36,860 nt of DNA from positions 1 through 36,860 of the forward strand of contig CACWNW010000036.1 of NCBI GenBank assembly GCA_902762305.1. The letters are read 5' to 3'. The stretch is from Fibrobacter succinogenes. GTDB taxonomy: Bacteria; Fibrobacterota; Fibrobacteria; Fibrobacterales; Fibrobacteraceae. Positions 12,507 to 25,419 of the stretch are shown here, piece by piece (within the stretch, counting starts at the first letter, position 1; every line of letters starts with the position of its first letter). The notes below the pieces were generated by a model. The model ran no database searches, was not told the origin of the DNA, and saw nothing but the letters and a program-made list of their open reading frames with translations. Position numbers and translations under genes: made by a program.

Positions 12507-12817
12507 TGTAAATATACTTCATCCATTTGAATTTGTCAACATATTCAAGTCAATGACAAGGACAACCGGAAAGAGCTGTCCCCATACATAAAACGGTCTT
12601 CGAGGGCAAAATGAGCCGAAAAATTTTGTTTACAAGCTTTTTTTTCAGAAAACGGGAATCCCTCGCGTTTTCGGAACTTTTTTCATTTCTAGCGATGTTT
12701 TTTTCGCCGAAATCTTTATAATTTTATCCACGGATTTTTGCGCCACGGGTGTGCGCCACATGCCCGGGGTGTATATGATCAGATTTTTTCGAAAAAACCT
12801 AAAAATTGGAGACACAC
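12507..12817. promoter_or_regulatory. Divergent intergenic region upstream of nifJ
   Basis: 311 bases with no gene. A TATAAT box at 12717-12722 lies about 95 bases before the nifJ start and is the best -10 candidate; the remaining leader is GC-rich and long (GGTGTGCGCCACATGCCCGG). The toxin-antitoxin promoter would read the other way from the left end. No riboswitch-like pattern that I recognise. Confidence 0.4.
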
Positions 12818-15800
12818 ATGGCAAAAAAGATGATTGCGTGTGATGGTAACGAGGCCACCGCTAGCGTAGCATTTGCTGTTAGCGAAGTTGCGGCTATCTA
12901 CCCGATTACACCGTCTAGTCCTATGGCTGAGCACGCCGACAACCGCGTGTTTGAAATGCAGTCCGAAGGTGGCGCTGCCGGTACCGTTCACGGTGCTCTG
13001 CAGGCCGGTGCTTTAACCACGACCTTCACCGCTTCCCAGGGTCTTCTCCTGATGATCCCGAACATGTACAAGATTGCGGGCGAACTGACCCCCACGGTCT
13101 TCCATGTGACTGCCCGTGCCCTTGCCATGCAGGGCCTTTCTATTTTCGGTGACCATTCCGACGTGATGGCCTGCCGCCAGACCGGCTTTGCCATGCTCGC
13201 TTCCAGCTGCGTGCAGGAATGCCAGGACCTCGCCCTCGTGGCCCACGCTTCTACTCTCGAAAGCCGCGTTCCGTTCATGCACTTCTTCGATGGTTTCCGT
13301 ACCTCTCACGAAGTGATGAAGATCGAAGCTCTCGAAGACGGCGTTATCCGTAACGTCATCGACGAAAAGTACGTGAAGGCTTGCCGCGAACGCTGCCTCA
13401 CTCCGGACCGCCCGACCATGCGCGGTACCGCACAGAACCCGGACGTTTACTTCCAGGGCCGCGAAACGGTGAACCCGTTCTACGCCAAGGTTCCGGAAAT
13501 TGTCCAGAAGTACATGGACAAGGTTGCTAGCTACACTGGCCGTCAGTACCACATTGTCGATTACGTCGGTGCACCCGACGCTGACCGCGTGATCATTTCC
13601 ATGGGTTCTTCGACCTGCACCATCGGTGACACCGTCAAGTACCTCAACTCCAAGGGCGAAAAGGTCGGTCTCGTGAACATCCGCCTGTACCGCCCGTTCC
13701 CGATGGAAGCCGTGGTTGCAGCCCTCCCGAAGACCGTCAAGAAGATTGCCGTCCTCGACCGCTGCAAGGAACCGGGTTCCGCTGGTGAACCGCTCTTCCA
13801 GGACGCCCTGACCGCTATCTCCGAAGCCGTGATGGCCGGCAAGATGGCTATGCCGAAGATGATCGGCGGCCGCTACGGTCTCTCTTCCAAGGAATTCACC
13901 CCGGCCATGGTCAAGGCCATCTACGACGAACTCGCCAAGGCCGACCCGAAGGCTCGCTTCACCGTCGGTATCAACGACGACGTTTGCCACACGAGCCTCA
14001 CCATCGACCCGAACTTCAAGCTCGAAAGCGACTTCTTCCAGGCTATGTTCTTCGGTCTGGGTTCCGACGGTACCGTGGGTGCCAACAAGAACTCCATCAA
14101 GATTATCGGTAACGAAACCGACAACTACGCCCAGGGCTACTTCGTTTACGACTCCAAGAAGTCCGGCTCCATGACCACCTCTCACCTCCGCTTCGGTAAG
14201 AGCATCATCGACGCCCCGTACCTGATTGGCGAAAACGAAGCCGACTTCGTGGCATGCCACCACACTCCGCACCTGGAATCCGTGAACATGCTGAAGTACG
14301 CGAAGGATGGCGCGACCTTCCTCGTGAATACTCCGCATTCTGCCGACACCGTGTGGGATACCTTCCCGCGTCCGGTGCAGGAAGAAATCATCAAGAAGCA
14401 CCTCAAGGTGTACGTGATCGACGCCTACGCCGTTGCCGCAAAGACCGGCATGGGCCGCCGCATCAACACCGTGATGCAGACCTGCTTCTTCAGCAAGCTC
14501 GGTAACGTGCTCGATGCCGAAACCGCCATCAAGTACATCAAGAAGTATGCCGAAAAGACCTACGCCAAGAAGGGTCAGGAAGTGGTCCAGAAGAACTGGG
14601 ACGCTATCGACGCCTCTCTTGCTAACCTGTTCGAAGTCAAGGTTCCGGCCGCTGTCACCAGCACGAAGGAATTCCGCGCTCCGATCCACGGCGACGCTCC
14701 GAAGTTCGTGAACGAAGTCACCGCAGAAATCATCAAGGGCAACGGCGAACTCCTCCCCGTCTCCAAGATGCCTTGCGACGGCGTGTTCCCGACCGCTACC
14801 ACCAAGTACGAAAAGCGCGACCTCGCCCTCAACATCCCGTCCTGGAATCCGGACGCTTGCGTGCAGTGCGGCAAGTGCGCCATGGTCTGCCCGCATGCAG
14901 CCATCCGCGTGAAGGTTGTGGACGAATCCGCAGTGAAGAACGCCCCGGAAGGCTTCAAGTACACCCCGGCCAAGGGCTTCAAGCTCGAAGGTTCCGACAA
15001 GCCGGTGTTCGCTATTTCCGTGTCCAGCTACGACTGTACGGGTTGCGGCGTTTGTACGCAGGCCTGTATCGGTAAGGACAAGACCGACGAGACCAAGAAG
15101 GCCATCAACATGGTGCCGCAAGAACCCATCAAGGTTCAGGAAGGCAAGTGCTGGGACTTCTTCGTCGACCTCCCGGAATTCGACCGCACCAAGGTCAACA
15201 AGAACCTGGTCAAGCAGGCCATGCTCCTCGAACCTCTGTTCGAATTCTCCGGCTCCTGCGCAGGCTGCGGCGAAACCGCTTACGTGCGTCTCGTTTCTCA
15301 GCTCTTCGGTGACCGCATGATCGTTGCCAACGCTACGGGTTGCTCCTCCATTTACGGCGGTAACCTCCCGACCACTCCGTGGGCAAAGAACAAGGAAGGC
15401 CGCGGTCCGGCTTGGGCGAACTCCCTCTTCGAAGACAACGCTGAATTCGGTCTCGGTATGCGCCTCGCTATCACGAAGCATGCCAAGCAGGCTTTGAGCC
15501 TCCTCGAAGCCGTGAACGTTCCTGCCGAACTCAAGGAAAAGCTCACGACCCAGGACCAGTCCGACGAAGCCGGCATCAAGGCCCAGCGTGAAAACGTCGC
15601 CGCCCTGAAGGCTGCTCTCGCCGGTGCAACCGACGAAGCATCTGTCAGCCTCCGCGACGAATTCGCCGACTACCTCGTGAAGAAGTCCGTGTGGATCTTC
15701 GGTGGTGACGGTTGGGCATACGACATCGGTTACGGTGGTCTCGACCACGTGATGGCCACGGGCGAAAACGTGAACATCTGCGTCCTCGATACCGAAGTGT

Positions 15801-16345
15801 ACTCCAACACCGGTGGACAGGCTTCCAAGGCCACGAACCGTGGCGCAGTCGCCCTCTTCGCCGCCGCCGGTAAGCGCGCCGGCAAGAAGGACCTCGGCCT
15901 CATCGCCATGAGCTACAAGAACGTTTACGTGGGCCGTATCGCCCTCGGCGCAAACGACGCTCAGGCCCTGAAGGTTCTTCAGGAAGCAGAAGCTCACAAT
16001 GGTCCGTCCCTGATCATCTGCTACTGCCCCTGCATCAACCACGGTTTCGATCTCAACAGCCAGCTTCAACACCAGAAGATGGCCGTAGATTCCGGTTACT
16101 GGACTCTGCTCCGTTACAACCCGGCTCTCGCCGCCGAAGGAAAGGCTCCGCTTATCCTCGACTCCAAGAAGCCGACGATTCCGGTTGCAGAATACATCTA
16201 CACCGAAAACCGCTACAAGCAGCTCACCCGTAACAATCCGGAAGTGGCCAAGAAGCTCGCCGACGACCTCCAGAAGGAAGTTGACGCCCGCTACGCATTC
16301 TACGACGCCATGTCCAAGGATACGGAAGGGCTGATCAGCCTGTAA
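12818..16345 (+). CDS. nifJ: Pyruvate:ferredoxin (flavodoxin) oxidoreductase
   Basis: 1175 aa single-chain enzyme that oxidises pyruvate to acetyl-CoA and CO2 and passes electrons to ferredoxin; the central catabolic step of an anaerobic fermenter. Domain order is complete: N-terminal pyruvate-binding domain (SEVAAIYPITPSSPMAEH), central CoA-binding and gamma regions, EKR region (TTKYEKRDLAL), two 4Fe-4S clusters in CVQCGKCAMVCPH and CTGCGVCTQACIG, a further Cys pair in CAGCGETAYVR for the third cluster, and the thiamine diphosphate motif GGDGWAYDIGYGGLDHV with DTEVYSNTGGQASK. The start is ATG 12818 six bases after GGAG; an earlier in-frame TTG (12806) overlaps the ribosome site. Codon use is strongly biased, as expected for a highly expressed gene. 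Confidence 0.97.
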   Translation: MAKKMIACDGNEATASVAFAVSEVAAIYPITPSSPMAEHADNRVFEMQSEGGAAGTVHGALQAGALTTTFTASQGLLLMIPNMYKIAGELTPTVFHVTARALAMQGLSIFGDHSDVMACRQTGFAMLASSCVQECQDLALVAHASTLESRVPFMHFFDGFRTSHEVMKIEALEDGVIRNVIDEKYVKACRERCLTPDRPTMRGTAQNPDVYFQGRETVNPFYAKVPEIVQKYMDKVASYTGRQYHIVDYVGAPDADRVIISMGSSTCTIGDTVKYLNSKGEKVGLVNIRLYRPFPMEAVVAALPKTVKKIAVLDRCKEPGSAGEPLFQDALTAISEAVMAGKMAMPKMIGGRYGLSSKEFTPAMVKAIYDELAKADPKARFTVGINDDVCHTSLTIDPNFKLESDFFQAMFFGLGSDGTVGANKNSIKIIGNETDNYAQGYFVYDSKKSGSMTTSHLRFGKSIIDAPYLIGENEADFVACHHTPHLESVNMLKYAKDGATFLVNTPHSADTVWDTFPRPVQEEIIKKHLKVYVIDAYAVAAKTGMGRRINTVMQTCFFSKLGNVLDAETAIKYIKKYAEKTYAKKGQEVVQKNWDAIDASLANLFEVKVPAAVTSTKEFRAPIHGDAPKFVNEVTAEIIKGNGELLPVSKMPCDGVFPTATTKYEKRDLALNIPSWNPDACVQCGKCAMVCPHAAIRVKVVDESAVKNAPEGFKYTPAKGFKLEGSDKPVFAISVSSYDCTGCGVCTQACIGKDKTDETKKAINMVPQEPIKVQEGKCWDFFVDLPEFDRTKVNKNLVKQAMLLEPLFEFSGSCAGCGETAYVRLVSQLFGDRMIVANATGCSSIYGGNLPTTPWAKNKEGRGPAWANSLFEDNAEFGLGMRLAITKHAKQALSLLEAVNVPAELKEKLTTQDQSDEAGIKAQRENVAALKAALAGATDEASVSLRDEFADYLVKKSVWIFGGDGWAYDIGYGGLDHVMATGENVNICVLDTEVYSNTGGQASKATNRGAVALFAAAGKRAGKKDLGLIAMSYKNVYVGRIALGANDAQALKVLQEAEAHNGPSLIICYCPCINHGFDLNSQLQHQKMAVDSGYWTLLRYNPALAAEGKAPLILDSKKPTIPVAEYIYTENRYKQLTRNNPEVAKKLADDLQKEVDARYAFYDAMSKDTEGLISL

Positions 16346-18002: not shown

Positions 18003-19460
18003 TTACCTTGCAGCAGCTCCCTTTGCAGCCATGTCGCATTTCATGTACTGAAGGTCCTGCAGCAGATTCGCGTCCTGCCCACCGGACAAGGCGACGGCCT
18101 CGTTCATGAGTCGCAGGGCCTCGTCTGTTTTCCCGAGGCGGTACAAGGCAAGTGCACGCCCACCCATGGAGTAGGTGTCGTTGCTATTGATTTCCAGCGC
18201 TTTATCGTTCGCAGCGATGCAATCGTCGTAATTGCCGCACATGAACTCGCTGTATCCCCTAGCCCTGTAAGTATCCGCATTATCCGGCTCCAGTTCCTGC
18301 GCACGTTTCAACGCAAAAGCGGCTTCCTGGAATTCGCCCTGCGGTATCAGCGAACTTGCAAATTCCAACAAAGCTGCAGCATTGTCGCACTTGGAATACT
18401 TCGTTTCCATTTCCTTGAGAGAAAGATTATATGCGCAATATTCATTCTCTTCATAGATGCTGCCCTTCATCGTGAGGCGCGTATTCGGGCAACCGCCGAG
18501 GCACTTGGAACCGTAAATGCACTTTTTGCAAGAGCCCGAAAGCTTGTCCTTTGTCAAGTGACGTCTCCATTTAAATGCATTTTCGTCTTCCCAGATATCC
18601 CGCAACTTTCTTTCGCGGATATTCCCTTCGACAAACTCCTTGGAGCGGATAGATGTACAGCCAAGAATACTGCCGTCATGCAATATTCCGAAGCCGCGGA
18701 CACCCGCATTGCAGCCGTCCCACAAGGAATAGCCATCGGATTGGTAGGATATGCGCCTAGTCTCGAGATCCTTCGATGAGTAATACCCGATACAGTCGGC
18801 CGGATAGATGCGAATCCTCCCCTCCTTTGCCGTATTGTAGCAGAAGTCGATGATATCCCGAATCTGCCTCGGTTCGAGCAGCCAGTCTGGGCGCTTTTTC
18901 AGGTTCCCCATCGGCAAACCGATCTGCACCTGCCAGGTTTTGACGCCCATGCGGATGAGTTCCTCCTTCAAGTCCGGAAGAATGTCGATGTTCTGCTTCG
19001 TGATGGTCGTGACGGCACCGGTCTGGATTCCGAGTTCCGTCATGGCTGCGAAGGCCTGCCGCGCATGCTCGAAGGCACCCTTCATCCTGATCTTGTCATG
19101 GATTTCAGGGACGCCGTCGATACTTATCGCGACAGTAGATATCCCGTTTTCTTTTAACCTTTGGGCCATCTTCTTGTCCAAAAGCCAGCCGTTCGTAATC
19201 ATGTTCACCAGGACGCCATTCTGCGAAAGCCTCTTCACCAGTTCGGGAGTGTCCGCTCTCGTAAGAGGCTCGCCTCCAGACAAGGTAATCCACATGAGCC
19301 CAAGTTCTGCGATCTGGTCGCACAAGTCAAGCGCTTCCTCCGTACTCAATTGTCCCGGGAGCGCACCCGCACAGGAAGAGCCGCAATGTCCGCAACGCAT
19401 GTTGCAACCCATCGTCACCTCCCAAACGGCGGTGACGGGCCTATACCCGATATTTGCCAT
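18003..19460 (-). CDS. Radical SAM/SPASM peptide maturase with C-terminal TPR domain
   Basis: 485 aa. The radical SAM cluster motif is C19-x3-C23-x2-C26 in TMGCNMRCGHC, followed by GGEP (62-65) for SAM binding. The SPASM region (about 250-342) has Cys at 250, 268, 311, 314, 320, 324 and 342, enough for two auxiliary 4Fe-4S clusters as in enzymes that cross-link or epimerise ribosomal peptides. Residues about 355-470 form three TPR-like repeats (EFQEAAFALKRAQELEPDNA and two more), likely for binding partner or substrate. The gene follows the repeat protein by 79 bases and has its own GGAGG site. Substrate is inferred to be the KYGYP-repeat protein upstream. Its chemistry cannot be read from sequence; ring formation at Tyr or thioether formation at Cys are the options I favour. 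Confidence 0.88.
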   Translation of the reverse strand: MANIGYRPVTAVWEVTMGCNMRCGHCGSSCAGALPGQLSTEEALDLCDQIAELGLMWITLSGGEPLTRADTPELVKRLSQNGVLVNMITNGWLLDKKMAQRLKENGISTVAISIDGVPEIHDKIRMKGAFEHARQAFAAMTELGIQTGAVTTITKQNIDILPDLKEELIRMGVKTWQVQIGLPMGNLKKRPDWLLEPRQIRDIIDFCYNTAKEGRIRIYPADCIGYYSSKDLETRRISYQSDGYSLWDGCNAGVRGFGILHDGSILGCTSIRSKEFVEGNIRERKLRDIWEDENAFKWRRHLTKDKLSGSCKKCIYGSKCLGGCPNTRLTMKGSIYEENEYCAYNLSLKEMETKYSKCDNAAALLEFASSLIPQGEFQEAAFALKRAQELEPDNADTYRARGYSEFMCGNYDDCIAANDKALEINSNDTYSMGGRALALYRLGKTDEALRLMNEAVALSGGQDANLLQDLQYMKCDMAAKGAAAR

Positions 19461-19507
19461 TAATAAACCTCCAAACTGCCAACAGGCAGTTCTGATTTCC
19501 AGTCAAA

Positions 19508-19530
19508 CCCCATCCCATAAAGGGACGGGG
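19508..19530 (-). promoter_or_regulatory. Hairpin between precursor gene and maturase gene
   Basis: On the reverse strand CCCCGTCCC-TTTAT-GGGATGGGG is followed by TTTG only. It looks like a leaky terminator or an mRNA-stabilising stem. A smaller CTGCC-AACA-GGCAG stem lies at about 19478-19491. Such elements commonly keep precursor levels above enzyme levels. Confidence 0.55.
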
Positions 19531-19539
19531 AAATCTCAA

Positions 19540-20367
19540 TTAACCCTTTTTCTTCAAATCGCAGATAAACCCGTATTTGACCCTCGGGAATCCGTAGGCA
19601 ACCACCGGCTTAGCGTCACCGCGCGGGAATCCGTACTTAAGGTTTATATCCGGATAACCGTACTTTATGTTCTGATTCGGGTAGCCGTATATAAAGGAGA
19701 CAGACCGCGCGCAGGAATCGTCACAACACTGCGTCGCATCTTGCCCTCCGTAGGGGTAACCATACTTAAAGTTTACATCCGGATAACCGTACTTCATGTT
19801 CTGATTCGGGTAGCCATACTTAAAAGCCACAGGCTGCGTTACGCAAGGATCGCAGGAATCGCAGGGATCGGAAGAATTGCAGGAATCGTCACAGCACTGC
19901 GCCGTATCCTGAGCTCCGGGGTATCCGTACTTTACAGTCGGTTCTACAGGGTAGCCGTACTTGAATGCCACGCTGCGGTTTCCCAGAACGACACCATAAG
20001 GCATTGCCGAATTGCACACGGGATCGACCGCGTCGTCGCAGTTCTCGCTGAACTTCGCAAAATCTTCCGAATCCTTGGGAATGACAGTCACATTCACATC
20101 GACTTTCTGCTTCGCCGAAGTCATGTCAGACAAATTGATTAGCGTGAACCCGATTTCTGCCTTATCTTTCACAGCAGAAAGTGCGCCGAACCAAAATCTC
20201 TGAATTACAGGTGCAACCCCAGCCGCCGTCGGAATTGTCTCCATTCCAATCAGAGCAATCCCCTGCGGGAGCCGCGTCAGGCACCACCCCCAACAGGTGG
20301 AACCGAGCATCGATTGCAGGTCGATCGAGAACGACTTACCCTGTAATACTATCATTTCTTTTGCCAT
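19540..20367 (-). CDS. Chagasin-like domain protein with ten KYGYP-type repeats; putative RiPP precursor
   Basis: 275 aa, no signal peptide. Residues 1-97 (GKSFSIDL, CWGWCLTRLPQGIALIG, QRFWFGALSAVKDKAEIGFTL, VDVNVTVIP) follow the strand order of chagasin-type (I42) cysteine-protease inhibitors, with the usual NPTTGYxW loop replaced by GSTCWGWC. Residues 98-134 are an acidic linker with two Cys. Residues 135-267 hold ten YGYP-type units: five F/V/M-KYGYP before residue 206, then FIYGYP, IKYGYP, LKYGFP, VAYGFP and VKYGF. Cys/Asp-rich spacers (QCCDDSC, SSDPCDSCDPC) separate groups. It ends LKKKG. GGAGGTATTCT precedes ATG 20367, overlapping the end of the PrsW gene. I propose the inhibitor domain as leader and the repeats as core modified by the adjacent radical SAM enzyme. 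Confidence 0.75.
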   Translation of the reverse strand: MAKEMIVLQGKSFSIDLQSMLGSTCWGWCLTRLPQGIALIGMETIPTAAGVAPVIQRFWFGALSAVKDKAEIGFTLINLSDMTSAKQKVDVNVTVIPKDSEDFAKFSENCDDAVDPVCNSAMPYGVVLGNRSVAFKYGYPVEPTVKYGYPGAQDTAQCCDDSCNSSDPCDSCDPCVTQPVAFKYGYPNQNMKYGYPDVNFKYGYPYGGQDATQCCDDSCARSVSFIYGYPNQNIKYGYPDINLKYGFPRGDAKPVVAYGFPRVKYGFICDLKKKG

Positions 20368-21032
20368 AGAATACCTCCATTTGATGGTTTAGTTGAAGAC
20401 CTTTCATTATCCCGATTTCGCCCGCTGGTGAACATATACAACAGAATGGCGCAGGCCATCGGCATCACGTAACCGATATACGAAGAAATACCGGGCTTGG
20501 AAACAAGCAGGTTGTAGAGCCCGTGGACAGTCACCGACAGCGAGAACACTCCCGCAATCCCCGCAAAAGAGAAAATGTTGTACCTTTTCAGGAACCGGAT
20601 TCCCTTGGCAACCGCCACCAAAGTGACTATATGCATCACGCCGACAGCCGCCCCGCGAATCAGGACATTCGTAAGCTGTGGCGCACCCGACGAAAGGATA
20701 AAGCAGCAGTTTTCAAAAGTCGCGAAACCGGCCCCGATACCCACCGCAAAAAGGTCGGTCTTGTCGCCGGACGATTCGAACATATATATGCAAAACAGAA
20801 TCGTCAGCAGCTTCATGGATTCTTCTATCATCGGAGAAAGGAATATGGAGGTGTCTTCGGGGCCAAACCCGGACAGAGCCTCGATTGCCCCCGCAATATA
20901 TGCCGAAATAATGCAAGCGAGCATCCCGGCAAGGAAACTGGCGACCATACGGCGGGCGTTCCCCTTGGTAAAAAGCATGGTTACGGCCAGCGGGACCGCT
21001 ATGCATATCAGGATATTTTCAGCATAGAGCAT
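20352..21032 (-). CDS. PrsW-family intramembrane metalloprotease
   Basis: 226 aa with about seven membrane segments. The family residues are all present: Glu70-Glu71 in PMIEESMK, Glu107-Asn108 in GAGFATFEN, His134 in VGVMH and His170 in TVHGLYN. PrsW proteins cut membrane proteins; the Bacillus enzyme performs the first cut on an anti-sigma factor, and CPBP/PrsW relatives also process peptides. Here it sits between sigma-factor genes and a peptide precursor, so either use is possible. The start is taken at ATG 21032, ten bases after AAGGAG, inside the end of the upstream gene; an in-frame TTG at 21041 is too near the ribosome site. The last codons overlap the start of the precursor gene. Confidence 0.85.
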   Translation of the reverse strand: MLYAENILICIAVPLAVTMLFTKGNARRMVASFLAGMLACIISAYIAGAIEALSGFGPEDTSIFLSPMIEESMKLLTILFCIYMFESSGDKTDLFAVGIGAGFATFENCCFILSSGAPQLTNVLIRGAAVGVMHIVTLVAVAKGIRFLKRYNIFSFAGIAGVFSLSVTVHGLYNLLVSKPGISSYIGYVMPMACAILLYMFTSGRNRDNERSSTKPSNGGILWQKK

Positions 21033-21795
21033 CGGCTGCAATCTCCTTTTTCATCGACATCGGCAACAGGAGCAAGGCAATCGTATTCGCCAAGTATGCA
21101 GCCTGGTAGCTATAACCGTAACTCGAGAACATCACCAGATTCGTCCATAACAAGAATGTCGACGCAACAAAGATGTCCTTCTCCTGGTAACTCTTGAGCC
21201 CGAGCCACGCCATTACGGCAAACATCAAACCAAAACACACCGATTCGATAAAAAGATGGGCGAACCCGCCAACAAGAATCAGCACAACGTGCAACACCAC
21301 GAAAGATATGCACGCCACGAAAGCCGACTTAATCTCGTGCGGCGTCATGGAACCCCTGGTGCGTAAGCCGCGTATCAGAACCCACACGAAATAGACATAC
21401 GGGATTCCGAACACGATATCTTGCAGCCACTCCCCCGACCACACAATCCATAGCGCAATGTTCGCCCCGATAAAGAGGGCGGCAAACAAGACCTCCCCCA
21501 TCCGAACCGCCTTGTCACGCAGCATCGTGTTCAGGCCCGCCGACAAAAGCAGGATAACGGAGCATTCCGCAATCTCGTTGGCCGCAATGGGCATGCGCGT
21601 ACCCGGTTTCAGCGTGTCGTAAACAATCCAGTACAAATCGCTCAGGAGGTAGCTCACCATCGCCAAAAAAAGGAAAAACGGCAGGAACGCCGTCTTTGCC
21701 CTTATCATCGGCGCAACAAGCCGCACAACAATGACCGACAACACAAAAATCTGCAATCCAGTCAATATGAAGTTCAACAGAATCAGGCTACTCAT
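21019..21795 (-). CDS. Multi-pass membrane protein, possible sensor
   Basis: 258 aa with seven or eight hydrophobic segments spread over the whole length (ILTGLQIFVLSVIVVRLV, FLPFFLFLAMVSYLLSDLYW, VLFAALFIGANIALWIVW, and so on) and only short loops. There is no catalytic motif I recognise. The pattern resembles the 7-TM input modules of some signalling proteins. It overlaps the 38-aa gene upstream (ATG inside its last codons) and the PrsW gene downstream, so it belongs to the same translationally coupled operon. A role in sensing an envelope signal upstream of PrsW is inference. Confidence 0.7.
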   Translation of the reverse strand: MSSLILLNFILTGLQIFVLSVIVVRLVAPMIRAKTAFLPFFLFLAMVSYLLSDLYWIVYDTLKPGTRMPIAANEIAECSVILLLSAGLNTMLRDKAVRMGEVLFAALFIGANIALWIVWSGEWLQDIVFGIPYVYFVWVLIRGLRTRGSMTPHEIKSAFVACISFVVLHVVLILVGGFAHLFIESVCFGLMFAVMAWLGLKSYQEKDIFVASTFLLWTNLVMFSSYGYSYQAAYLANTIALLLLPMSMKKEIAADALC

Positions 21796-21904
21796 CGCAG
21801 GAATTCTCCCGCTTGACCCTATTCACGTGCAAGGCGAGTTGAGTAACCAGCACTCCAAAAACAAAAGCAAGCACGCCGATAATTACGTAGCCAGCAAATT
21901 GCAT
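21788..21904 (-). CDS. 38-aa single-pass membrane microprotein
   Basis: Reads MQFAGYVIIGVLAFVFGVLV then TQLALHVNRVKRENSCDE and stops at TAG. One hydrophobic helix (residues 4-25) is followed by a short basic then acidic tail with one Cys. It overlaps the end of the sigma-factor gene by 22 bases and its own end overlaps the start of the next gene by 8 bases, a tight arrangement that would be unlikely by chance. There is a GAAAGGATGGGAAAAAC stretch upstream for ribosome binding. It could be a minimal anti-sigma factor or a PrsW substrate/regulator; neither is shown by sequence. Confidence 0.65.
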   Translation of the reverse strand: MQFAGYVIIGVLAFVFGVLVTQLALHVNRVKRENSCDE

Positions 21905-22464
21905 GTTTTTCCCATCCTTTCGTACATGGCGCGAAGGGACTCCTTGCCCCTGGCCAAGAGATTGTAAGTCTGCTTGATGTTCTTTTTTATTATCAGGCTG
22001 ATCTGTTCCGGCTTCATGCCCTCGAAATAGAGGAGGTAAAGAGCCTGCCTGTAGCCCGAATCAATCTTTTCCATCGCCCGATACAGCAGCGCATCACTTT
22101 CGTTTTTCAGGAGCCTGGCCACAGGTTGGCAACTCGAATCCGCCTCGAGATTGCAGAGGACATCGTTATTGGAGAAGATAAACCTGATTTTCCGTTTGCG
22201 CAAATAGAGCAAGGCCTGCTTTTTGGCAATCGCATAGAGCCACGTCTTGAACGATGCGTCGTCTTTTTCCTTGTAGCGGGCCGTACCCGACACCAGGATT
22301 GCAAAAGTATCCATCATCAGTTCTTCGGCTTCGTCCGAATTCTGGACAATTCCATAAATAAACAGGGTCAACCCGTCTCTATATTTATCGAAAAGCGTGA
22401 CAAGCGAATTTTGGTCATTTTCGCTCAAAAAATGCATATAGAGCAATCCATCGGTATCGTACAT
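21883..22464 (-). CDS. ECF-type RNA polymerase sigma factor
   Basis: 193 aa. Region 2 begins at SLVTLFDKYRDGLTLFIYGI and contains EAEELMMDTFAIL, AxFKTWLYAIAKKQALLYLRKRK (DNA melting and -10 contact). Region 4 is DSGYRQALYLLYFEGMKPEQISLIIKKNIKQTYNLLARGKESLRAM, a typical sigma-70 helix-turn-helix. There is no region 3, as in ECF factors. I chose ATG 22464 because GGAGG lies eight bases upstream; an ATG eight codons earlier overlaps that site. It heads a leftward operon with a microprotein, a membrane protein, PrsW, the repeat precursor and the radical SAM enzyme, and probably controls it together with the divergent cystatin-like genes. Confidence 0.9.
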   Translation of the reverse strand: MYDTDGLLYMHFLSENDQNSLVTLFDKYRDGLTLFIYGIVQNSDEAEELMMDTFAILVSGTARYKEKDDASFKTWLYAIAKKQALLYLRKRKIRFIFSNNDVLCNLEADSSCQPVARLLKNESDALLYRAMEKIDSGYRQALYLLYFEGMKPEQISLIIKKNIKQTYNLLARGKESLRAMYERMGKTCNLLAT

Positions 22465-22790
22465 CAATCCAGCCTCCAGCAAAAACAAGGCTGCATTGTC
22501 ACAAAAATAAAAGACATAGACGGACTTCTCATATGCAAGACTTTTCGACTCGTAACATTATTTTATTAAAAAAATATACAATAACGTTGTTATAAAGTCA
22601 ATAATGCGCAACGAGATAAATTCTTGGTTTGTATTACATTCGACATCATATCTATTCTATATACGACACAAATTTTGTAAATATTTTTTTATACAAAATA
22701 ATGAGTAAAAATCAAAAAAAAAGCAATTAATGGAGTGCAGATGGGCTATAGCCCACACAAAAATCAACATCAAAAAAAAAGGAAAACAAA
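22465..22790. promoter_or_regulatory. AT-rich divergent control region between sigma-factor and cystatin-like genes
   Basis: 326 bases, mostly A+T, no gene. A palindrome ATAAC-GTT-GTTAT lies at 22581-22593 and may be an operator. ATTTTTTTATACAAAAT near 22683 offers a TATACA -10 box for the forward genes. An ECF-type promoter cannot be told apart by eye. Confidence 0.4.
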
Positions 22791-23141
22791 ATGAATAGAC
22801 ATAAAATGTTGCACGGAGGATGGGTCGTCGACGTAAGGAGATGCGGTTGGGACGAAGATATCCAAAAAGCCTACGAACAGCTGAACCTCCTTCCCGGAAC
22901 AAAATACGAGCCCATCGCCCAAGTGGCCAAGCAGGTTGTCGCAGGGCTCAACTACATCACCGTTGGCGAGCAGACAATCAAGGGTACACCTGAGAAAAAT
23001 CAAGTCTGCATATCGTTCTGGAGCCAGGTAGATAAAGAAAGAACCACTTCTATCCTCTCTATCATTCCGATTAAGGACGGCGCACCCGTCACTCTGCCCG
23101 ATGGCCAAGTAGTCGACTGGGCGATGTACGACAAAGCTTAA
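22791..23141 (+). CDS. Cystatin-like protein 1
   Basis: 116 aa, no signal peptide. Two hallmarks of cystatin cysteine-protease inhibitors (family I25) stand in the right places: a Gly-Gly pair near the N-terminus (LHGGWVVD) and QVVAGLNYITV near residue 48, the first-hairpin QxVxG motif followed by the usual Asn-Tyr and strand. The helix before it (WDEDIQKAYEQLNLLPG) also fits the fold. The second hairpin may be formed by PDGQVVDW near the C-terminus. It should bind papain-like proteases, or be a scaffold for modification; no experiment is implied. It is 79 percent or so identical by eye to its tandem neighbour. RBS AAAAGGAAAAC precedes the ATG. Bacterial cystatins are rare. Confidence 0.72.
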   Translation: MNRHKMLHGGWVVDVRRCGWDEDIQKAYEQLNLLPGTKYEPIAQVAKQVVAGLNYITVGEQTIKGTPEKNQVCISFWSQVDKERTTSILSIIPIKDGAPVTLPDGQVVDWAMYDKA

Positions 23142-23178
23142 ACAAAAAAACAAAAAACATCAAAAAAAGGAACATAAA

Positions 23179-23526
23179 ATGATAAGACATAATCTCAAAC
23201 CAGGCGGATGGCTAGTCAATGTAAGGAGAGCAGGCTGGGACGAAGACATCAAGAAGGCCTACGAACAGCTGAACCTCCTTCCCGGAACAAAATACAAGCC
23301 CATCGCCCAGGTGGCTACGCAGGTTGTCGCAGGGCTCAACTACATCACCATCGGCGAACAGACTATCGCAAATTCACTTAAGACAAGTCAAGTTTGCATA
23401 CTGTTCTGGAGCCAGGTAGATAAAGATAGGACCATTTCTATTTGCTCTATCGTTCCGATTAAGGACGGCGCACCCGTCACTCTGCCCGACGGCCAAGTAG
23501 TCGACTGGGATAAATACAACTCCTAA
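23179..23526 (+). CDS. Cystatin-like protein 2
   Basis: 115 aa tandem paralogue of the preceding gene. It keeps KPGGWLVNVRRAGWDEDIKKA, QVVAGLNYITIGEQT and the C-terminal PDGQVVDW. Differences cluster in the middle loop (ANSLKTSQVCILFWSQV against KGTPEKNQVCISFWSQV) and at the very ends, the positions that would change protease or partner specificity while preserving the fold. Both copies have one conserved Cys before the FWSQVDK strand. The same AAAAAAAGGAACATAAA ribosome-site context precedes its ATG, so the pair arose by tandem duplication including the leader. A terminator follows at once. Confidence 0.72.
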   Translation: MIRHNLKPGGWLVNVRRAGWDEDIKKAYEQLNLLPGTKYKPIAQVATQVVAGLNYITIGEQTIANSLKTSQVCILFWSQVDKDRTISICSIVPIKDGAPVTLPDGQVVDWDKYNS

Positions 23527-23540
23527 ACAAAACCCACTAA

Positions 23541-23570
23541 GCGCCCGGGAATATTCCCGGGCGTTTTTTA
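23541..23570 (+). terminator. Terminator after the cystatin-like pair
   Basis: GCGCCCGGGAATATTCCCGG followed by GCG and TTTTTT: a perfect palindromic stem (CGCCCGGGAAT/ATTCCCGGGCG) with T-run. Confidence 0.92.
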
Positions 23571-23645
23571 ACAATTTTTTACAAATAAAGTATGAGAAAA
23601 AAGGAGGATTTATGCTATAAATATAGAGAAGGAAAACTTGACAAT

Positions 23646-23951
23646 ATGAAATACACAACAGAGAATGCACTGAACGAAATAAAAAGGCGCGCAAGGCGAA
23701 TCAAACGGGAGCACAACAGAAAGGTAACCCGACTTTTGGCATCATCCGCCTGCCTGTCGCTAATAGCCCTCTTTGCCATGATAGGCATATTTTCGGGCTC
23801 TGAGCTACCCGAAACGCAAACCATGTACGGATCAATAATACTGCAAGCAAAGACAGGAGGGTACGTGTTGATTGCAGTTTTGGGCTTTTTTCTGGGAGTT
23901 TTGGCAACGCTTTTAATCAATCATTCAAAAAAGAAGAAATGCAAATTCTAG
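23646..23951 (+). CDS. Small membrane protein with basic N-terminus
   Basis: 101 aa from ATG 23646 (GAAGGAAAA about nine bases upstream); an ATG at 23592 is in frame but without a good site. The N-terminal 28 residues are strongly basic (NEIKRRARRIKREHNRK). Two membrane helices follow (LLASSACLSLIALFAMIGIF and GGYVLIAVLGFFLGVLATLL) joined by a loop with PETQTMYGS. It ends KKKKCKF. Function unknown. A stretch TTGACAATATG overlaps the start. Position next to the cystatin-like genes suggests membership of the same accessory system. Confidence 0.62.
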   Translation: MKYTTENALNEIKRRARRIKREHNRKVTRLLASSACLSLIALFAMIGIFSGSELPETQTMYGSIILQAKTGGYVLIAVLGFFLGVLATLLINHSKKKKCKF

Positions 23952-24016: not shown

Positions 24017-24078
24017 GCATGCAGCGCATTCCAAAAAAAGTTTAACTATCTTTTTTGATAAACTCTCGAGATCCCCCC

Positions 24079-25419
24079 ATGACGGCAACGCAGCCCCAAG
24101 CTCATTCCTCCCCCATGCGGCCACTTACGGCCGTGTGCGTCGCGGTATTCGCGATGGCGCTTGCCGCCGTGTTCGCCGGGTGCAGCAACAGCGGGTGCGC
24201 GTGGGACTACAACTGCAGCGAGGCCGAATACCTGCCCATCGACGACAGCGAATACCCCTATGCGGGCCTCCCGAGAATCGTCATCGAGACCGAAGGCCTG
24301 CGCGAAGTCAGGAACCGCGAGACCGAAGTCCCCGCGAGGCTGCAAATCTGGGGCGAAACCGAGCCCGAAAGCGACGTGATGGAGCTGACCATCCGGGGGC
24401 GCGGGAACACCTCCTGGCAGATGATGCCCAAGAAAAGCTACAAGATCGAATTCCTGCAAAAACAGGCCCTGCTCGGGATGCCCGAAGACAAAGACTGGGC
24501 GCTCGTGAGCAACTACGCCGACAAGACGCTCATGAAGAACGCGCTGGCGCACCGGCTGGCATCCCGGCTGCACGTGCGGTATTCCCCGCGGAACAGGTTC
24601 GTCGAGCTCTACCTGAACCGCGAATACCTCGGCGTCTACCTGCTTATCGAAACAGTCAAGGTCGCGGAGCAGCGCGTCAACATCCCCAAGAAAAGCGACT
24701 CGTACCTTGTAGAAGCGACGCAGAACCCGCAGTCCTGGGACAAGGTTGTATATTCCGACGTGTTCCACCCCGACTCCCTCGACATGTCGTTCGCCGTGCA
24801 CCACCCCAAGGACGCCTCCGACGAGGCGCTGGACACGCTCCAGCAGCACATCAAGAAGTTCGAGAAATTCATCAAGGCGATGAAGACGTACGAACCGAAC
24901 GACCTCGGCAAATGGCTGGACATCAACGAGTGCACAAGGCACTACTGGGTGCAGGAATTCACCAAGAACCCCGATGCGAAGGGCTATTCGAGCCTGTACT
25001 TCACGTGGGTCAAGGGCGGGCCCATCCGCATGGGGCCCGAATGGGACTTCGACCTCGCCTTCGGAGGCCACAACAACGACACCACGAACCAGTCCGACAA
25101 TATGTACATCAAGATCGGCTACTGGCATTCATACATTTTCAGGGATTTCGACGCGGCAAAATCCCGCGTGTATTACTGGCGCGAGAACAAGAAAAGGTTC
25201 TCGAACACGCTCGATGCCGTCGATTCGCTGTACAGCCTGCTGCAGGGCGCCGCGGAAAACAACTTCAAAAAGTGGAAAATACTCCAGAGCACCGAATACG
25301 AATACCACCGGCACGCCTACGGCTCATACGCAGACGCCGTCGAAGATCTGAAGGCATGGATCAAGGAACGCTACGACTGGATAGACGAAGAAATGTCCGT
25401 ATCCAAGAGGGCGTACTGA
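24079..25419 (+). CDS. CotH-kinase-family lipoprotein
   Basis: 446 aa from ATG 24079; ATG 24115 is equally possible and gives a classic 22-residue lipoprotein signal (MRPLTAVCVAVFAMALAAVF, then AGC). No clear ribosome site marks either. The CotH domain spans most of the protein: MELTIRGRGNTSWQMMPKKS, KDWALVSNYADKTLMKNALA, RFVELYLNREYLGVYLLIE, and the metal-binding GPEWDFDLAFGG near residue 320. The C-terminal segment (YGSYADAVEDLKAWIKERYDW) is typical of the family end. Related in domain but not closely in sequence to the protein at 3691. The last 105 bases and some 3' flank exist again at 26688-26810. Target of the presumed kinase is unknown. Confidence 0.87.
   Translation: MTATQPQAHSSPMRPLTAVCVAVFAMALAAVFAGCSNSGCAWDYNCSEAEYLPIDDSEYPYAGLPRIVIETEGLREVRNRETEVPARLQIWGETEPESDVMELTIRGRGNTSWQMMPKKSYKIEFLQKQALLGMPEDKDWALVSNYADKTLMKNALAHRLASRLHVRYSPRNRFVELYLNREYLGVYLLIETVKVAEQRVNIPKKSDSYLVEATQNPQSWDKVVYSDVFHPDSLDMSFAVHHPKDASDEALDTLQQHIKKFEKFIKAMKTYEPNDLGKWLDINECTRHYWVQEFTKNPDAKGYSSLYFTWVKGGPIRMGPEWDFDLAFGGHNNDTTNQSDNMYIKIGYWHSYIFRDFDAAKSRVYYWRENKKRFSNTLDAVDSLYSLLQGAAENNFKKWKILQSTEYEYHRHAYGSYADAVEDLKAWIKERYDWIDEEMSVSKRAY

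Follow-up and report, generated by a model that had tools for sequence, protein, structure and literature searches.

The stretch of DNA analysed here (the window) is a 36,860-nucleotide contig of a 3.6-Mb genome of Fibrobacter succinogenes, and all positions are those of its forward strand. It carries a leftward operon of six genes, encoding an extracytoplasmic function (ECF) sigma factor, a 38-residue peptide, a multi-pass membrane protein, a PrsW-family protease, a repeat protein and a radical S-adenosylmethionine (SAM) enzyme, with three divergent genes running rightward. We propose that the radical SAM enzyme is a splicease, which probably turns the repeat protein, a precursor with a chagasin fold, into an inhibitor of papain-fold peptidases bearing multiple α-ketoamides, under the control of the ECF sigma factor and PrsW. 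The observations behind this proposal are the pairing of the enzyme and precursor genes, the conservation of an XYG (Xaa-Tyr-Gly) motif, the protein folds, a shared promoter element and the co-occurrence of genes across genomes. An earlier note, made from the sequence alone, had described the operon and the divergent genes, and the open reading frames (ORFs) do lie in that arrangement. Four of the five junctions in the operon overlap (sigma/38-residue peptide, 38-residue peptide/multi-pass protein, multi-pass protein/PrsW and PrsW/repeat protein), the sole exception being a 79-bp gap between the repeat protein gene and the radical SAM gene. The features are as follows.

18003..19460, minus strand: radical SAM/SPASM/TPR enzyme, predicted XYG splicease (Pfam Radical_SAM, SPASM, TPR; relatives paired with XYG proteins)
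19540..20367, minus strand: precursor, with a chagasin-fold N-terminal domain (about residues 1-100) and a tail with 12 Tyr-Gly sites (AlphaFold2 model, I42 in relatives, motif statistics)
19543..20010, minus strand: XYG repeat tail of the precursor, predicted splice sites (site list; DNA repeats)
20352..21041, minus strand: PrsW-family intramembrane protease (Pfam PF13367, E 1.6e-12; EESMK, FATFE, His137, His173)
21019..21795, minus strand: multi-pass membrane protein between sigma and PrsW (orthologues 46-57% identical in Fibrobacter sigma loci)
21788..21904, minus strand: 38-residue peptide with a single transmembrane (TM) segment, resembling TM2 of the divergent two-TM protein
21883..22488, likely start 22464, minus strand: ECF sigma factor (Pfam Sigma70_r2/r4_2)
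22703..22731, plus strand: promoter-like element GAGTAA-N17-ATTAAT, upstream of the cystatin-like genes
22791..23141, plus strand: cystatin-like protein 1 (QVVAGLNY; 76% identical to protein 2; fold from family model)
23179..23526, plus strand: cystatin-like protein 2 (QVVAGLNY; AlphaFold2 predicted local distance difference test (pLDDT) 84; Foldseek; stefins Z 8-9.3)
23594..23622, plus strand: second promoter-like copy GAGAAA-N17-ATAAAT, upstream of the membrane gene (position weight matrix (PWM) score 43, outside the training set)
23646..23951, plus strand: two-TM membrane protein, candidate anti-sigma factor or sensor (distribution identical to that of sigma, 11 of 61 genomes)

Comparison of gene neighbourhoods indicates that the conserved core of this system is the precursor with the radical SAM enzyme, and that sigma, PrsW and the cystatin-like proteins form a regulatory setting belonging to Fibrobacter. 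Relatives of the enzyme are encoded in 46 loci among the 84,980 species genomes scanned, and 47 loci, the window included, were searched for partners with an iterated profile built on the N-terminal domain of the repeat protein. A chagasin-like partner adjoins the enzyme in 33 of these, and locus L061, where the ORF filter had hidden it, brings the number to 34. These loci come from Fibrobacter, Butyrivibrio, Kineothrix, other Lachnospiraceae, Bacteroides and Thiodiazotropha, and so from the Fibrobacterota, Bacillota, Bacteroidota and Pseudomonadota. A conserved neighbourhood in other genomes, on which the earlier note had staked its idea, is thus present, as is the co-occurrence of enzyme and chagasin-XYG protein that it had proposed to look for; cystatin genes also occur without a splicease, and we reject them as part of the core. 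In three other genomes of the sampled genus Fibrobacter (61 genomes) the pair has no adjacent sigma or PrsW gene. The enzyme tree puts the Fibrobacter sequences together with Butyrivibrio in a single clade (100/99), nested among Lachnospiraceae sequences, which suggests horizontal transfer of the enzyme between Fibrobacter and Butyrivibrio.

The enzyme has a CX3CX2C motif (CNMRCGHC) at residue 19, and the identities given to it, to sigma and to PrsW by the earlier note all agree with Pfam (Radical_SAM, SPASM and TPR; sigma-70 regions 2 and 4; PF13367). Its best NCBIfam model is TIGR04103 (nif11-class radical SAM maturase 3), at 234 bits, with a cut-off of 725, and it is 34% identical to a Nostoc TIGR04103 enzyme across two thirds of its length. 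TIGR04103 is presumably also the InterPro class of PlpX. PlpX excises tyramine at XYG and leaves an α-ketoamide, a reaction for which the tag GGPIRPLYGLPI is in use (PMC10533398). Motif and genetics together argue strongly that the window enzyme is most likely a splicease too, because the XYG motif is common to otherwise unrelated partner proteins of homologous enzymes. The plasmid-borne Nostoc enzyme adjoins a Nif11 precursor ending ALYGLPPELF, followed by a 71-residue ORF. Among more distant relatives, five adjoin GG-leader XYG peptides (L052, L054, L055, L056, L059), two short XYG peptides (L046, L047), two secreted SLH proteins (L049, L051; one of these proteins ends PPYGFPPYGFPI) and one a secreted protein that has a dockerin and five YGFP copies (L048). 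'GDL' enzymes adjoin DUF1843 peptides, of which most contain xYG, several of them early in the sequence, and no XYG partner was found near the enzyme in L060 and L064. The earlier note had the SPASM enzyme making an unspecified modification to the repeat protein. The pairing holds, and the modification would most likely be the known XYG backbone splicing. PADLOC gave viperin-like matches only, which are accounted for by the generic radical SAM domain, and a viperin-type defence role was discarded.

It is worth adding that the SLH and dockerin proteins (L049:6392-7183, L051:9026-9976 and L048:9484-9999) belong to gut-type bacteria and carry YG(F/Y/V)P arrays beside a splicease-like enzyme; judging from these arrays, they could possibly present surface- or cellulosome-attached ketoamides.

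The tail of the precursor bears out this target. Ten KYGYP repeats had been counted in it; exact KYGYP occurs 6 times, ten being reached with the wider pattern XYG[YFV][PI], and the true repeat is Xaa-Tyr-Gly, with 12 Tyr-Gly pairs in the C-terminal part. The units (KYGYP, KYGFP, IYGYP, AYGFP) are separated by Cys-rich spacers. In 33 related tails there are 327 Tyr-Gly pairs, against a mean of 68 in shuffled sequences (maximum 88 in 500 shuffles), so that the richness is not due to chance, and all of the I42-type precursors that were read carry Tyr-Gly sites. The residue before YG is Lys at 67% of sites, and the position before that is L, M, V, F or I at about 86%, the commonest pairs being Leu-Lys, Val-Lys, Met-Lys and Phe-Lys. 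A hydrophobic P2 and a basic P1 suit papain-like peptidases and, less specifically, trypsin-like ones. In the literature library searched, no paper turned up on YGYPCG or on radical SAM with SPASM and chagasin. One precursor (L066:11515-12234) has Tyr-Ala-Tyr-Pro repeats, with two Tyr-Gly sites in the readable portion of its tail.

The AlphaFold2 model of the precursor's N-terminal domain (pLDDT 82) matches EhICP2 and chagasin with Z scores of 10.4-11.6, unrelated structures scoring at most 8.4. This agrees with the earlier note, which had called the protein chagasin-like and proposed an inhibitor-fold leader. The window precursor has no Pfam match (PF09394 included) and no meaningful NCBIfam match; Pfam I42 (PF09394) matches 8 of 30 relatives, one of them above the cut-off (L053, 4e-9; L065, at 5.5e-4, is below it). 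The inhibitory motifs of chagasin are NPTTG, GXGG and RPW/F (PMC2607524). Like the chagasin/ICP family I42 of Trypanosoma, Entamoeba and Pseudomonas, the domain has the fold and part of loop L2 (ST-x-Y-x-W, or more exactly ST-x-Y-G-W, in most relatives; STCWGW in the window copy). Unlike that family, the window copy conserves neither GXGG nor RPW/F and is fused to an XYG repeat tail; since the inhibitory loop motifs are altered, we file it as a chagasin fold and not as an I42 inhibitor. We note that L2 in most relatives reads x-Tyr-Gly-Trp, itself an XYG sequence, the window having Cys-Trp-Gly-Trp (precursor residues 23-28, about 20283-20300).

The two divergent cystatin-like proteins have neither a Pfam nor a meaningful NCBIfam match. 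The model of protein 2 has cystatin topology, its best 16 Foldseek matches are all cystatins or stefins, with modest E-values (0.007 upward), and VIA-align gives stefins Z 8.0-9.3. QVVAG is exact in both proteins, and QVVxG is present in most relatives; a family profile finds PDB cystatins weakly (E 0.36-1.6). The fold and the exact motif uphold the earlier assignment, including the separation of these inhibitors, as genes of their own, from the leader. They resemble cystatins and stefins in their beta-alpha-four-beta topology, QVVAG loop and Gly-Gly near the N-terminus, and differ in being bacterial, in lacking a Pfam match and, by inspection, a signal peptide, and in having two- or three-domain copies in some Fibrobacter. 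Relatives occur in 8 of the 61 Fibrobacter genomes, some with two or three domains. They may act as inhibitors of papain-like peptidases.

Sigma orthologues are found in 11 of the 61 genomes and start near Met9 of the window copy (about 22464). The two-TM gene is found in exactly the same 11 (hypergeometric 2e-12, the related genomes not being independent). In the loci read, the two genes are adjacent and divergent, with the multi-pass protein and PrsW following sigma. PrsW scores 35 bits with the NCBIfam equivalog model (cut-off 225), and PF13367 and the EExxK, FxxxE and His motifs are present; no Pfam family matched the multi-pass protein. The two-TM gene, listed at 23592, truly starts at about 23646, as its orthologues begin (M/V)(K/N)YT and a promoter lies at 23594. 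The shared distribution makes its product a candidate anti-sigma factor or sensor partner of the ECF sigma. The 38-residue peptide is found only in three sigma loci, each from a splicease-bearing genome.

In Bacillus, the PrsW/SigW module combines an ECF sigma factor with PrsW. The same combination is seen here, with PrsW encoded in the sigma operon; unlike Bacillus, the partner is a two-TM protein of 101 residues, very little of which is cytosolic, together with the multi-pass protein. The loop between the TM segments has a conserved YG(A/S)(F/I)(I/V)(L/I) motif. Since this is kept also in genomes without the radical SAM enzyme, a role for the two-TM protein as a second splicease substrate (YG(A/S)FIL) is not favoured. 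Genome G019 (L072:2387-4297) has a second sigma copy that lacks the multi-pass protein and PrsW; with it are a two-TM gene in truncated form and a gene for a two-domain cystatin, each preceded by the promoter element.

This element was found through a 47-bp match upstream of the cystatin-like genes, which led to another contig of the same genome. It consists of a T-rich stretch followed by GAGTAA-N17-ATTAAT. In the whole genome a longer form, of 21 bp, has two sites, one before the cystatin-like genes and one ahead of the operon that encodes a secreted papain-like protein, and its reversed control has none. The shorter form is exact only upstream of the cystatin-like genes, and single-mismatch sites by themselves mean little because the reversed control yields at least as many. 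The element is found ahead of the two-TM gene both in the window and in several other genomes. In G004 and G019 it stands before cystatin genes, and in G008, G018, G019, G031, G062 and G075 before the protease operon or that operon's first gene. In G036 it lies at a contig end, downstream of the two-TM gene, and in G006 it is upstream of the two-TM protein, precursor and radical SAM genes, all in the same direction. In another Fibrobacter a barnase-family (PF00545) lipoprotein is encoded behind it (L021:5783-6391). No element was found upstream of the cystatin genes of G012, G015, G076 and G078, and co-regulation there was set aside. The element common to cystatins, two-TM gene and protease operon supports the earlier idea of one signal-controlled gene set, and we infer from its placement that the ECF sigma reads it.

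Two links to papain-fold peptidases were found. The Fibrobacter operon behind the element (G000:C1:21742 to about 27400; L080:6743-12411) encodes a secreted small protein, a large protein and a papain-like protein. The last of these matches Peptidase_C1 in the His/Asn half only (E 5e-6), and a Cys-bearing GESGACAS stretch can be made out in it by eye. Lachnospiraceae-type loci provide the second link: beside the pair, 13 of them encode a GHKL kinase, 11 a LytTR regulator and 10 a C92-like protein of about 290-345 residues with invariant GD, His and Cys-Ser. Six aligned members, all with a GHKL kinase and mostly LytTR beside them (L033:5005-6042, L034:5858-6859, L036:6119-7069, L045:6719-7597, L057:5820-6755, L063:5714-6631), are below-cut-off matches to YaeF/YiiX permuted papain-like models (the best at about 2e-7), and Peptidase_C92 is matched by two of them. 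By these profile matches, a papain-fold enzyme is linked to the chagasin/XYG protein in two phyla, through different wiring; that enzyme may be the protein's target or its maturation protease. In SpeB/Spi, staphopain/staphostatin and Bacteroides Bfp/Bfi, too, the gene for a cysteine protease is linked to that for a small inhibitor, believed to protect the producing cell (PMC2873492). Here, by contrast, a promoter element common to separate loci provides the coupling, and the inhibitors are a cystatin fold and a protein predicted to be spliced.

In the mechanism we propose, the splicease would bind its partner by the chagasin-fold leader and excise a tyramine unit (135.08 Da per site) at as many as 12 XYG sites, so that the residue in front of each (mostly Lys, after Val, Leu, Met, Phe or Ile) becomes fused to an α-ketoamide. 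The product would be a folded inhibitor-like domain with a chain of electrophilic warheads for papain-like cysteine peptidases. It would be made from the ECF-sigma operon, in a regulon that adds the cystatin-like proteins and the distant secreted papain-like protease operon, and the products would most likely restrain papain-fold peptidases, either the cell's own before export or foreign ones following damage. According to reviews, the ketoamide residues of spliceotides confer protease inhibition (PMC10373908; PMC11002830). Leader fold, product and cystatins therefore point the same way, as a ketoamide product would itself be an inhibitor. We hold only tentatively, and with rather more doubt than conviction, the fuller version in which a chagasin-fold protein with up to 16 spliced ketoamides covalently traps papain-fold cysteine peptidases, being tied to C1-like and C92 enzymes and co-deployed with cystatins. 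By inspection, neither the precursor nor the cystatin-like proteins have a signal peptide, which leaves the host or protozoal targets of the earlier note unsupported; its third suggestion, the cell's own papain-fold enzymes, is the better linked.

Several points weigh against the proposed inhibitor. The TIGR04103 score is far under its cut-off, with TIGR03913 scoring almost equally; and no PlpY-like gene recurs beside the pair among ORFs of at least 60 residues compared across loci, for which a remote or shorter PlpY-like gene, or a role for the TPR domain, is a possible explanation. Sigma occurs in just 2 of the 4 splicease genomes of the sampled genus (p 0.15), and a PWM scan scored no copy of the element upstream of the sigma operon itself. 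With no visible exporter or signal peptide, contact with a secreted protease is explicable only before export or after lysis. Given the altered inhibitory motifs of the window copy, the N-terminal domain may be a leader alone.

This last point is shared by an alternative that we think unlikely, namely that the protein is the precursor of a ribosomally synthesized and post-translationally modified peptide (RiPP), whose spliced tail is cut by the C92 or C1 protease into bioactive ketoamide peptides. The repeat units and spacers are near-identical, a C92 gene adjoins the pair in 10 loci, and C1A proteases work in other RiPP clusters (PMC10885120). However, an exporter gene does not recur at any constant position near the pair (an ABC ATPase occurs in 6 loci, its offset varying), the C1-like gene of Fibrobacter lies far off and its product looks secreted, and a ketoamide substrate would tend to block a cysteine protease. 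Rather less credit goes to a regulon for antagonism or against predators, in which envelope damage would be answered by a secreted protease or ribonuclease, with inhibitors shielding the cytosol from papain-like effectors of rivals or ruminal protozoa. The variable cargo behind one element (papain-like operon, cystatins, barnase-family lipoprotein, membrane protein), the ECF/PrsW wiring, the gut and rumen distribution and the apparent Fibrobacter-Butyrivibrio transfer would all fit, but no delivery system or immunity pairing was seen, and no direct evidence speaks for a target in the host or in protozoa. It is improbable that the enzyme installs some other modification, such as a Tyr or Cys cross-link. 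In its favour, 63% of the YGYP-type sites in the relatives have a Cys after the motif, and the family model scores are not decisive. Most of those Cys are lost from the window copy while YG is retained, which favours YG as the target and disfavours a Cys-based cross-link as the main modification, and YG alone is common to the Nif11, GG, SLH, dockerin and DUF1843 partners.

If the enzyme is a splicease, its nearest counterpart is PlpX/PlpY of Pleurocapsa (Morinaka 2018 and Scott 2022, as summarised in PMC10533398 and PMC11002830), with a SPASM radical SAM enzyme and an XYG target, often YG-hydrophobic-Pro, at multiple sites per precursor. Those systems have Nif11- or nitrile-hydratase-like leaders; here there is a chagasin-fold leader, an enzyme with a TPR domain and no PlpY-like gene nearby, and up to 16 sites per precursor with Lys preceding the site. 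There are 27 characterized and 939 predicted spliceotide systems (Scott 2022, as cited in PMC10533398), and some of our 34 loci may already be among the latter. The splicing is known chemistry; the chagasin-leader, multi-site architecture is new unless that survey lists it.

Elsewhere in the window, 12806-16345 and 24055-25419 appear by eye to encode a pyruvate:ferredoxin oxidoreductase-like protein and a CotH-like lipoprotein, probably with no relation to the operon.

To our knowledge, the natural roles of spliceotides are not clearly established. Here the leader fold, the expected warhead, the residues flanking the sites, the cystatin neighbours and the two papain-fold links converge on the control of cysteine peptidases, which gives a concrete candidate target. 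If this is right, the system would provide polyvalent ketoamide inhibitors by ribosomal synthesis. The findings also outline an ECF/PrsW regulon in a fibre-degrading rumen bacterium, with a promoter element common to the genes of a secreted papain-like protease and of cystatin-like proteins.

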